Source: Alteriqipengyuania flavescens (GTDB lineage Bacteria; Pseudomonadota; Alphaproteobacteria; Sphingomonadales; Sphingomonadaceae). Taken from it: DNA of 64,000 nucleotides. The position numbers and the translations under genes were made by a program. Positions 33,125 to 40,494 of this stretch are shown piece by piece. The DNA lies in assembly GCF_030406725.1 (NCBI RefSeq), contig NZ_CP129107.1:124001-188000 (forward strand). Reading direction: 5' to 3'. The first letter of the stretch is position 1. The number at the start of each line of letters is the position of its first letter. The notes under the pieces are model-generated. The model was not told the DNA's origin, made no database searches, and worked only from the letters and a program-made list of their open reading frames with translations.

Positions 33125-33859
33125 CTAGCGCCTTTGCGCGGCGATGAGAAATTCCACGTTGCCTTCCGGCCCGGTGATCGGGCTTTCGACGATGCCGTCA
33201 ACCTGCCAGCCTGCGCTTTCCAGCCAGTGTCGCACTTCGCCGCACACGCGGTCGTGCAGCGCCGGATCGCGCACCACGCCGCCCTTGCCAACCTCGTCGC
33301 GACCGACCTCGAATTGCGGCTTGATCAGCGCGACCAGACGGCACGGCGTGGCCGCAAGCTCCAGCGGGCGCTCCAGCACCTTGGCAAGGCCGATGAAGCT
33401 GGCATCGCACACCACCCAGTCGCACGGCCGGTCGATTTGTTCCGCGGTCAGGATCCGCGCGCTCGTCTGCTCCAGCACGGTCACGCGCTCGTCCTGCCGC
33501 AGTTTCCACGCGAGCTGGTTCGTGCCGCTGTCGACCGCAAAGACATGCGCCGCCCCGCCCTGCAGCAGGACGTCGGTGAACCCGCCGGTAGAAGAGCCGA
33601 TGTCCATTGCGATCGCGCCGCGCGGATCGAGCCCGAAATGCGCGATGGCGTGGGCGAGCTTGATGCCGCCGCGGCTGACCCACGGATGGTCGCGTCCGCG
33701 CACTTCCAACGGCGCATCGACGGCAAGCTGCTGGCCGGGCTTGGCGATCTTCGTCTCGCCGGAAAAGACCAGCCCCGCCATCACCAGCGCCTGGGCACGT
33801 GTGCGGCTTTCCACCAGTCCGCGCTCCACCAGCGCCTGATCCACCCTCTGCTTCGCCAT
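33125..33859 (-). CDS. tlyA: TlyA family rRNA (cytidine-2'-O)-methyltransferase
   Basis: TlyA methylates the 2'-OH of cytidines in rRNA (16S C1409 and/or 23S C1920). The 244-aa protein has an N-terminal S4 RNA-binding domain (RVDQALVERGLVESRTRAQA, then VFSGETKI), the SAM-binding DIGSSTGGFTDVLL, DWVVCDASFIGL and KPQFEVGRDEVGKGGVVRD. The start at 33859 (MAKQRVDQ) fits the family; the upstream open frame is shadow. Confidence 0.92.
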   Translation of the reverse strand: MAKQRVDQALVERGLVESRTRAQALVMAGLVFSGETKIAKPGQQLAVDAPLEVRGRDHPWVSRGGIKLAHAIAHFGLDPRGAIAMDIGSSTGGFTDVLLQGGAAHVFAVDSGTNQLAWKLRQDERVTVLEQTSARILTAEQIDRPCDWVVCDASFIGLAKVLERPLELAATPCRLVALIKPQFEVGRDEVGKGGVVRDPALHDRVCGEVRHWLESAGWQVDGIVESPITGPEGNVEFLIAAQRR

Positions 33860-33949
33860 GGCAGCGCGATAGCGGCGAGCCGCCCCACATGCCAGCCGGG
33901 GTTCACATCGCGCGTTGTAACGAGGGGCCCGAACCTTCATAGGAAGCCC

Positions 33950-34495
33950 ATGCAAATCAAACGCCTCCTCGCCTGTATCCCGCTGTTTGCGATCGCCTGC
34001 TGTTCCACCCCGCCGGAGCAGCCGCGCCAGCCGCCGGTGATCTACACCCCGATCCCGCGGCCCGCGCCGACGCCCGAAGCGCCCGTGGTGGCCGTCGCGC
34101 CGGAGAACTGGATCGACAACCCGCGCACGCCGGGGAACTGGACCTACGGCGCCGTCGGCAACGCCACCGTCGCGACCTATGCGGGCGAGGACGGGACCGT
34201 CCGCCTGTCGATCGAATGCGACCTTGCCGCGCGGCAGGTTCGCATCGCGCGGCCGGGCAATGCGCCGTCCGCCGTGGCGATGGGGGTCTTCACCGAAACG
34301 GAGAATCGCCAGCTCAGCGCCTCGCCCACGACAGGGTCCGTGCCGCAGCTGGTCGCCGCGCTGTCCCCGCGAGATCCGCTGCTCGATGCGATGGCCTTTT
34401 CGCGCGGCCGTTTCGCCATCGAGATCGCCGGTCTTGCGCCGCTGTACCTGCCCAGTTGGATCGAGGTCAGCCGGGTGGTCGAGGACTGCCGCTGA
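33950..34495 (+). CDS. hypothetical exported lipoprotein
   Basis: The product is 181 aa with a basic start (MQIKRLLACIPLFAIACCST), a signal ending in a lipobox-like IAC, a Pro-rich linker (PRQPPVIYTPIPRPAPTPEAP) and a compact domain with WTYGAVGNATVATYAGEDG and a final WIEVSRVVEDC. The domain recalls small sphingomonad envelope proteins with no assigned role. It is divergent from tlyA. Confidence 0.72.
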   Translation: MQIKRLLACIPLFAIACCSTPPEQPRQPPVIYTPIPRPAPTPEAPVVAVAPENWIDNPRTPGNWTYGAVGNATVATYAGEDGTVRLSIECDLAARQVRIARPGNAPSAVAMGVFTETENRQLSASPTTGSVPQLVAALSPRDPLLDAMAFSRGRFAIEIAGLAPLYLPSWIEVSRVVEDCR

Positions 34496-34668
34496 AACGC
34501 AAACGGCCCGCGCATATAGCGCAGGCCGGAAGCGCCGTATTCTGACGGGGAAAAGATATATTTCAAGCCTTGTCTTTGCCGCGCAAACGACTCACATATG
34601 CATGTAAGGCCAGCGGTGAACGCGGGTTCTTGCCCCCGGTGAAACGGCGGGTTTTGGCTCAATAGCGC
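34496..34668. other. non-coding spacer with a dyad after the lipoprotein gene
   Basis: No convincing gene is seen. A dyad at 34505-34527 (GGCC, one mismatch, GCGC, ATATA, GCGC, GGCC) begins ten bases after the lipoprotein stop and may terminate it, although no T run follows. A weak promoter-like pair, TTGTCT (34570-34575) and CATATG/ACATAT near 34594-34600, could drive the element starting at 34669. Confidence 0.4.
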
Positions 34669-34683
34669 GAAAGGAGGTGATCC
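34669..34683 (+). promoter_or_regulatory. extended Shine-Dalgarno: perfect 15-base complement to the 16S rRNA tail
   Basis: GAAAGGAGGTGATCC is the exact reverse complement of the conserved 3' end of alphaproteobacterial 16S rRNA (GGATCACCTCCTTTC). Usual Shine-Dalgarno sites match four to six bases. The GGAGG core stands seven bases before the ATG at 34685, the optimal spacing for initiation. Confidence 0.7.
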
Positions 34684-34684
34684 G

Positions 34685-34741
34685 ATGTCTCATGGTTCAG
34701 CAGAGGGGTCGGCAAGTTTCCACGCGAGGCATTATCGGTAA
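34685..34741 (+). CDS. candidate 18-residue peptide or leader frame
   Basis: The ATG directly after the extended ribosome-binding site opens an 18-codon frame (MSHGSAEGSASFHARHYR) ended by TAA at 34739-34741. It is too short to classify and has no hydrophobic segment and no run of branched-chain codons, so a classical ilv attenuation peptide is not supported. The stop lies inside the first half of an 8-bp inverted repeat, as expected of a leader peptide whose translation controls an RNA fold. A non-coding role is also possible. Confidence 0.4.
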   Translation: MSHGSAEGSASFHARHYR

Positions 34742-34758
34742 GCATTCCTGACCGATAA
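34732..34758 (+). promoter_or_regulatory. perfect 8-bp inverted repeat spanning the small-frame stop
   Basis: TTATCGGT (34732-34739) and ACCGATAA (34751-34758) form a perfect stem with an 11-base loop that contains the stop codon's last bases. A second stem, GCGGC / GCCGC with a seven-base loop, follows at 34770-34786. Together with the terminator-like hairpin downstream they look like a folded leader or small RNA. Confidence 0.55.
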
Positions 34759-34791
34759 AGGTTTCGTGGGCGGCACTTCCGGCCGCTGACC

Positions 34792-34887
34792 ATGCGAAAG
34801 GTCGCCATCGGCATAGCCGTGGCGGCCTTTCTCATTTTCGGGCCCTGCCAAAAGTCCACGCGCGCCGGTTCTTCGGCCCTTTGCTAG
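34792..34887 (+). CDS. possible 31-residue hydrophobic peptide
   Basis: An ATG at 34792 opens a 31-codon frame beginning MRKVAIGIAVAAFLIFGPC, which looks like a signal or membrane peptide with a Cys after the hydrophobic run. No ribosome-binding site is visible before the ATG, and the first half coincides with the hairpin at 34797-34830, so the resemblance may be chance. Confidence 0.2.
   Translation: MRKVAIGIAVAAFLIFGPCQKSTRAGSSALC
34797..34838 (+). terminator. strong terminator-like hairpin
   Basis: AAAGGTCGCCA (34797-34807) pairs with TGGCGGCCTTT (34820-34830), with CGGC/GCCG extending the stem in the loop, followed by CTCATTTTC. It would end transcription of the small element about 110 bases before the branched-chain aminotransferase gene. 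The stretch also overlaps a 31-codon frame (34792-34887). Confidence 0.6.
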
Positions 34888-34945
34888 GTCAGCAGCCTTG
34901 CCAGCCGCAGCATCGCGAATTAGGCGCGCCGGGCAGGAGATTACC

Positions 34946-36055
34946 ATGGCCGCAGACGGCACCGACAGCACCGATATTCCTTTCGAGCGCATCCCCCATC
35001 CCGCGCCCGTACCCGGGGCCACGCGCGACCAGGCACTGGCCGATCCGGGCTTCGGATCGCTGTTTTCGGACCACATGGTGCAGATCGACTGGACCGAGGG
35101 GCGCGGCTGGCACAGCCACCGGGTCGGCCCGCGCGAGCCGATCGCCCTCGACCCCGCCACCAGCGTCCTCCACTACGCGCAGGAAATCTTCGAAGGCATG
35201 AAGGCTTATCGGCAGGACAATGGCGACATCGCCCTGTTCCGGCCCGAAGCCAACGCCGCGCGCTTCAACAATTCCGGTGCGCGCCTGGCGATGCCGCCCA
35301 TTCCGGAGGCCGACTTCCTCGCCGCCGTTCGCGAACAGGTGCTGGCCGACCGTGACTGGTTTCCCAGCGTCGAAGGCGGCTCGCTCTATTTGCGTCCCTT
35401 CATGTTCGCCTCGGAAGCCTTCCTCGGCGTCCGGCCGGCGAAGGAATACAAGTTCCTCGTCATCGCCAGCCCCGTCGGCGGCTATTTCAAGTCGGGCGCG
35501 CCGGCGGTCTCGATCTGGGTGAGCGAGGACTACATCCGCGCCGCCCCGGGTGGTACTGGCGATGCGAAATGCGGCGGCAACTACGCTGCCAGCCTCGTGC
35601 CACAAGCCGAAGCGATCGCGAACGGATACGACCAGGTCGTCTTCCTGGACGCGGTGGAGCGCAAGTGGGTCGAGGAACTGGGCGGCATGAACCTGTTCTT
35701 CGTGTTCGACGACGGGCGTATCCTGACCCCGCCGCTAACCGGCACGATCCTGCCCGGCATCACGCGCGACAGCCTCATCACCCTCGCCCGCGAGGAAGGG
35801 CTGGACGTGGTCGAGGAACGCTACAGCCTGGAGCAGTGGCGCGAAGACGCGCAGAGCGGCAAGCTGCTGGAAACGATGGCTTGCGGCACCGCGGCGGTCG
35901 TCACCCCGGTCGGCAAGGTCGGCGGGCGCGATGGCGAATTCATCATTGGCGGCGGGAGAGCCGGGCAGATGGCCGCCAGGCTGCGGGAGAAGCTGGTCGG
36001 CATCCAGCGCGGTACGATCGAGGATCGCCACGGCTGGGTGACCAGGATCGGCTAG
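34946..36055 (+). CDS. ilvE: branched-chain amino acid aminotransferase
   Basis: This PLP enzyme performs the last step of Leu, Ile and Val synthesis and the first of their breakdown. The 369-aa protein is of the longer fold-IV (BCAT II-like) group: LHYAQEIFEGMKAYRQ, LYLRPFMFASEAFLGV, GTGDAKCGGNYAASL with the PLP lysine, ELGGMNLFFVF and LTGTILPGITRDSLITLA. ATG 34946 (MAADGTDS) has an AGGAGA site upstream. The structured element upstream does not resemble a known branched-chain leader. Confidence 0.93.
   Translation: MAADGTDSTDIPFERIPHPAPVPGATRDQALADPGFGSLFSDHMVQIDWTEGRGWHSHRVGPREPIALDPATSVLHYAQEIFEGMKAYRQDNGDIALFRPEANAARFNNSGARLAMPPIPEADFLAAVREQVLADRDWFPSVEGGSLYLRPFMFASEAFLGVRPAKEYKFLVIASPVGGYFKSGAPAVSIWVSEDYIRAAPGGTGDAKCGGNYAASLVPQAEAIANGYDQVVFLDAVERKWVEELGGMNLFFVFDDGRILTPPLTGTILPGITRDSLITLAREEGLDVVEERYSLEQWREDAQSGKLLETMACGTAAVVTPVGKVGGRDGEFIIGGGRAGQMAARLREKLVGIQRGTIEDRHGWVTRIG

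Positions 36056-40419: not shown

Positions 40420-40494
<75 letters not shown>

Follow-up and report, generated by a model that had tools for sequence, protein, structure and literature searches.

A CC2171-like small RNA of Alphaproteobacteria combining an extended Shine-Dalgarno sequence with a short open reading frame

All coordinates given here are positions within a window of 64,000 nucleotides (nt) of Alteriqipengyuania flavescens (contig NZ_CP129107.1, 124,001 to 188,000), which is the whole stretch of DNA that was analysed. Its forward strand carries an element composed of a ribosome-binding site, a short open reading frame (ORF), a long-range stem enclosing the ORF and a terminator (Table 1). 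A preliminary description of this DNA had reported a perfect 15-base complement of the 16S ribosomal RNA (rRNA) 3' tail, seven bases ahead of the ATG of an 18-codon frame whose stop falls in an inverted repeat. All of this was recovered: GAAAGGAGGTGATCC (34669-34683, forward strand) is complementary in 15/15 bases to the alphaproteobacterial tail, GGAGG lies 7 nt before the ATG at 34685, and the frame MSHGSAEGSASFHARHYR (34685-34741) ends with a TAA (34739-34741) within the 5' arm of the repeat 34732-34742/34748-34758. Judged from sequence comparison, the 15-mer and the ORF are the 5' part of a small RNA (sRNA) of about 175 nt (34658-34835).

The match had been called three times the usual length and rarely due to chance. 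The first statement is fair, the predicted duplex with the 16S tail reaching -28.0 kcal/mol versus -8.7 kcal/mol for GGAGG alone, and the second is, if anything, understated. Indeed, this is the strongest site of the window by predicted duplex energy (next best, about -20 kcal/mol); it is unique there at up to two mismatches (0.05 expected from shuffles), and the 2.72-Mb genome contains the 14-mer AAAGGAGGTGATCC a single time. Among 385 genomes of the class, the same 14-mer was found at about 130 places versus 2 for the reversed control. Some of these hits fall on unmasked 16S ends of class members, where the match is also exact, to 14 bases, and nearly all the other loci inspected correspond to the small-RNA element. 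A chance origin of the 15-mer was thus rejected on the window shuffles, the genome count, the class-wide counts and a draw across Pseudomonadota. We also rejected a 16S gene fragment or an rRNA antisense, as the Rfam scan gave no rRNA match and no 16S sequence flanks the site; true 16S ends run on as AGCCGCAGGTT, unlike the element.

At the gathering threshold, the Rfam scan of the window returned transfer RNA (tRNA) only. Below it, the family RF01867 (CC2171), filed by Rfam as an sRNA gene, matches the element over its full length (1-159/159) with 40.9 bits (E=1.8e-7 for 321 nt), under the curated threshold of 75 bits, whereas similar elements from other orders that have the same head score 88-95 bits, above this cutoff. 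From an alignment of 45 elements, all non-Sphingomonadales (A1), we built a covariance model (R1) which includes two stems, P1 and P2, and the terminator. R1 matches the window with 57.7 bits (E=1.5e-14, positions 1-178/178) and finds one site in the genome, with no second credible match. The 5' motif of the RF01867 consensus and its P1 stem adjoining the terminator are both present in the window copy, as seen from the alignment and the compensatory P1. Homologous to CC2171 by these comparisons but under the formal Rfam threshold, the element is called a divergent variant and relative of this Caulobacter sRNA. The two share the head CGAAAGGAGGUGAUCC.RUGUCUCAU, the long-range stem and the terminator in a full-length alignment; besides its low score, the window copy differs by an ATG instead of a GTG, by another peptide and by a P1 sequence changed in a compensatory manner. 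Rfam 15 cites CC2171 for a single covarying pair that was added (PMC11701678), and a member of the family, MH_s33, is among the Mesorhizobium sRNAs of a study in which 19 Rfam-annotated non-riboswitch sRNAs are stated as detected by RNA-seq (PMC5596092). No description of an ORF or of a 16S complement in CC2171 was found in the literature searched, a search that did not include the founding Caulobacter sRNA paper, and earlier knowledge is possible.

Table 1. Features of the CC2171-like element and its surroundings (window coordinates)
Feature	Position	Strand	Basis and remarks
Possible promoter, weak	34569..34610	+	CTTG at 34569, then an AT-rich stretch some 20 nt further on; conserved in close relatives
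Whole small-RNA element, CC2171-like	34658..34835	+	Full-length match of model R1; RF01867 over 34661-34828
Extended Shine-Dalgarno	34669..34683	+	15/15 complement of the 16S 3' tail GGAUCACCUCCUUUC; class-wide variants mostly keep G.U pairing
18-codon ORF MSHGSAEGSASFHARHYR	34685..34741	+	Sphingomonadales keep start, frame and stop position; class-wide length constraint
P1 left arm (CATGGTTCAGC, codons 3-6)	34691..34701	+	Pairs with 34785-34794; compensatory changes across lineages
P2 left arm (GGTCGG, inside the ORF)	34707..34712	+	Pairs with 34779-34784 in the P1-constrained fold; P2 covaries elsewhere
Apical hairpin with the stop codon (TTATCGGTAAG/CTGACCGATAA)	34732..34758	+	Inverted repeat; varies between relatives
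P2 right arm (CCGGCC)	34779..34784	+	Covariation in other lineages; P1-constrained fold
P1 right arm (GCTGACCATG)	34785..34794	+	Relatives' alignment, compensatory changes, covariation, constrained fold
Terminator-like hairpin and T-rich tail	34792..34838	+	Arms 34792-34807 and 34820-34835; conserved class-wide

Lack of conservation of the 15-mer or the frame in close relatives had been named beforehand as an outcome that would speak against the earlier interpretation; clearly, both are kept. DNA matching positions 34600-34900 is present in 28 of 61 genomes, all 28 of the family to which the window belongs, and in the alignment of these relatives the GCGAAAGGAGGTGATCCGATGTCTCATGGTTCAG...GGTCGG block is almost invariant and GGCCGCTGACCATG fully so, the hairpin is variable, and the terminator varies too but remains paired. 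Beyond this family, R1 finds the element in 94 of 372 alphaproteobacterial genomes, nearly always as a single copy; one genome of the window's family (G072) has two (C1:805102 and C1:2921842), one of which scores like the non-Sphingomonadales type (98.7 bits). Searching 385 genomes for a pattern of the head, with at most two mismatches, gave 56 positive genomes and no match of the control; the pattern was also seen in named Sphingomonas, Novosphingobium, Sphingobium, Erythrobacter, Caulobacter, Brevundimonas, Bosea, Methylobacterium, Microvirga, Azospirillum, Roseomonas and others. In the Pseudomonadota-wide draw, about every second alphaproteobacterial genome (68 in all) has the perfect site with its start codon, AAGGAGGTGATCCNDTG, against 1 of about 263 non-alphaproteobacterial Pseudomonadota, where the 134-amino-acid frame that follows looks like chance. 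In these searches, the element was found in roughly a quarter to a half of the sampled Alphaproteobacteria, a figure in which homologues devoid of the Shine-Dalgarno (SD) sequence would be under-counted.

Positions 3-14 are free of pair-breaking changes in 18 of 20 model hits picked because they do not contain the exact 14-mer, and A12G and C15T, the most frequent substitutions of the site, retain G.U pairs with the 16S. Sequence comparison thus indicates selection on the 16S complementarity, a match of 13-15 nt being kept through wobble changes. ATG, GTG or TTG serves as start codon and, with few exceptions, lies exactly one base past the site; the complementarity stops at about the end of the mature 16S, and further upstream the bases show no conserved complementarity to the precursor. 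Such a complement, which spans the single-stranded 16S tail in a class-wide single-copy gene and has a predicted duplex of -28 kcal/mol, would suit a decoy RNA that titrates or parks free 30S subunits, the ORF merely letting the ribosome leave. However, a decoy would need neither the fixed ORF length, nor the frame-preserving indels, nor the covarying P1 and P2 described below, and it would require a very high abundance; we consider it unlikely.

Several properties indicate that the ORF is maintained as such. In Sphingomonadales, 56 of the 62 distinct ORFs have exactly 18 codons and 62/62 fall within 16-20 codons, without any such length clustering in the other two frames; stops at one column are distributed between TAA (28), TGA (24) and TAG (4). 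Class-wide, an in-frame ORF of 14-30 codons exists in 187 of 193 elements, versus 49 and 64 in the other frames, in a set built without frames longer than 40 codons (Azospirillum-type frames of 56-59 amino acids and chance matches were left out). With an internal CTGG motif taken as landmark, 58 of 64 elements have this motif in the reading frame, although its spacing to the start is not constant (mostly 36, 39 or 42 nt). The spacing between stop and P1, in contrast, is random with respect to the frame (17/15/13 modulo 3). Indels respect the frame upstream of the stop but not downstream. Fixed lengths, swapped stops and frame-keeping indels are signatures of translation. The comparative evidence for translation is strong, and the ORF is likely translated.

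The peptide behaves differently. The preliminary description had proposed to compare synonymous with compensatory changes, and compensatory changes were found in P1 (see below). No purifying amino-acid selection was detected in Sphingomonadales, where the synonymous fraction is 0.24 versus 0.285 after column permutation and the third codon position is less variable than the first two. We suggest that selection, at least in Sphingomonadales, probably bears on the act and the length of translation and not on the peptide. A micropeptide gene, whose product would be the 14-30-amino-acid peptide and whose strong site would ensure a high output, had been put forward as well. Selection of the ORF as an ORF, its class-wide maintenance, the nearly invariant peptides of some lineages and a W-containing motif that recurs in several orders agree with this proposal, but the lack of synonymous excess in Sphingomonadales, the unrelated peptides of different orders and the RNA pairing that accounts for codons 3-6 do not, which makes it quite unlikely. 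In the family labelled f178 (L234, L248-L250, L254), a 14-codon frame, VS(F/Y/L)TKRCHLAGIAR, is almost invariant between species. Close to the stop, several lineages (L048, L211, L222-L232) share a hairpin whose GAGCAGYCT sequence is in frame (peptide EQP/KQS), with the start in frame 0 in 11/11. Azospirillum-type genomes (L029, L032, L097, L124, L136) have the same extreme site and an MSHGA start before a frame of 56-59 amino acids that resembles a secreted protein; here, a true gene may have co-opted the RNA head.

The left side of P1 and P2 corresponds to codons 3-10 (P1, 3-6; P2, 7-10) and their right side abuts the terminator. Across lineages, P1 forms a compensatory series (CATGGTT/GACCATG, CATTGTC/GACAATG, CATTGCC/GGCAATG, CATCGC/GCGATG and CATAGTT/GACTATG), and the proportion of cells paired in A1 is 94% for P1, 64% for P2 and 90% for the terminator. 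With 0.314, the covariation score exceeds both shuffles (0.178; 0/500) and slid controls (no higher than 0.139). Run on A1 alone, RNAalifold predicted the terminator plus a small pairing within the SD, but neither P1 nor P2; the structure was therefore named by hand and then tested with controls, and a structure chosen from the tested sequences can favour itself. A simple scanner did not flag the 34792-34838 hairpin. In the minimum free energy (MFE) folds of five representative relatives, a largely open head is followed by a closed P1/P2 domain beside the terminator. A large family labelled f29 (L235-L246) has CACCTCC or CGCCTCC in the segment before the terminator, which could pair with its own SD or with GGGAGGTG inside the ORF and suggests a different switch geometry. 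In the window, a 24-nt imperfect inverted repeat (34781-34804/34874-34897) ties the P1 right arm and the terminator to the spacer before the downstream gene.

The site is near the predicted 5' end in most lineages, as in the STAB-SD of cry3A, where an SD near the 5' end also pairs with the 16S 3' tail (PMC4113751). As ribosome-bound SDs stabilise Bacillus RNAs (PMC4113751) and CC2171 is filed as an sRNA, the element might be a classical base-pairing sRNA stabilised by a 5' ribosome, with translation serving only to guard it against nucleases. However, a STAB-SD starts no translation; here, a start codon stands at a fixed distance, 1 nt downstream of the site, before a length-constrained ORF, and the comparative evidence points to selection on start codon, frame and stop. 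We regard this explanation as distinctly improbable.

The element is preceded by a hypothetical gene and followed by an aminotransferase class IV gene which starts at 34946, about 110 nt past the terminator. Close upstream is also a TlyA-like gene (S4 and FtsJ rRNA methyltransferase domains; 33125-33955, reverse strand), found near the element in many Sphingomonadales, and the sole tRNA gene of the window is a tRNA-Gln (TTG) at 40420-40494 (forward strand). The promoter scan returned none on the forward strand; the CTTG position of Table 1 is mildly enriched upstream of elements class-wide. That the element could be a leader or attenuator of the aminotransferase gene, its downstream neighbour in many Sphingomonadales, is very improbable and disfavoured: a leader would keep a fixed position upstream of one regulated gene, but flanking genes are conserved in Sphingomonadales only and differ elsewhere and in L016-L020, and neither a regulatory codon run nor an antiterminator was recognised. 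The earlier suggestion of a leader thus finds no support, as the unit is ended by its own terminator and its neighbours vary between lineages.

Of the options raised at the outset, a small RNA engaging the 30S subunit is nearest to the evidence: its sRNA nature is supported by the relation to CC2171, and to it are added the wobble-kept complementarity and a translated-looking frame. We propose that the element is likely a free-standing small-RNA gene of the CC2171 kind doubling as a minimal messenger RNA (mRNA), in which ribosome occupancy, and not the peptide, would matter and would open the stem. A ribosome at the start codon would necessarily cover the left side of P1 and would therefore have to displace P1; when the footprint of an initiating ribosome is blocked, the predicted exposure of the right arm rises from 0.24 to 0.51. 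The RNA could plausibly, if not probably, alternate between a closed state, with P1 and P2 formed, and a ribosome-occupied state. With such an extreme landing site, occupancy would track initiation-competent 30S subunits, the ribosome being an obligatory opener and/or protector of the RNA, and the downstream effect might be exposure of the 3' arm to a partner or an altered RNA lifetime. More tentatively, the family may be a class-wide riboregulator reporting translation-initiation capacity, which would present the ribosome with a complement of the entire 16S tail and in which initiation itself, on an arbitrary short peptide, opens the stem.

Several points weigh against this proposal. The unconstrained MFE fold of the window RNA lacks P1 and has the SD partly paired, the P1-closed fold lying 1.1 kcal/mol above it. 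The test of amino-acid neutrality covered Sphingomonadales only; some other lineages have near-identical peptides, for example VS[FYL]TKRCHLAGIAR and MSSDFVFQNVASADCTFGKQSSR, although their DNA is very similar too, and a TW[IV] motif is seen repeatedly in many further ones. The 16S tail compared, GGATCACCTCCTTTC, is that of other Alphaproteobacteria, including a Sphingomonas, and not the host's own. Finally, the model and pattern searches weigh the SD strongly, hence the under-count noted above.

Known systems resemble the element in part. Dual-function sRNAs such as rnTrpL/peTrpL of Sinorhizobium and Spot 42/SpfP are also small RNAs with a very short ORF, but they act through a defined peptide and/or mRNA pairing, whereas here the ribosome site is extreme and no selection on the peptide was detected in Sphingomonadales, where no conserved sequence of its own was found; rnTrpL is, moreover, leaderless, unlike the element (PMC10117765). 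In Staphylococcus aureus, pairing with the 16S tail also extends beyond the canonical SD (PMC13009471), but by about two extra pairs on many mRNAs (PMC13009471), against the whole 15-nt tail on one gene here.

A known and unexplained Rfam sRNA family thus spans Sphingomonadales, Caulobacterales, Rhizobiales and Rhodospirillales/Acetobacteraceae-type organisms, and its near-complete 16S-tail complement and length-kept ORF make its function testable. Should its function lie in translation and not in the peptide, the element would represent a simple, naturally occurring sensor or user of free initiating ribosomes, within a class in which many genes are devoid of a Shine-Dalgarno sequence (75.4% of genes in Caulobacter; PMC4117421). 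The ligand of such a riboregulator would be the initiating ribosome, and not a metabolite, a tRNA or a specific peptide, and some "non-coding" Rfam families may be obligatorily translated.
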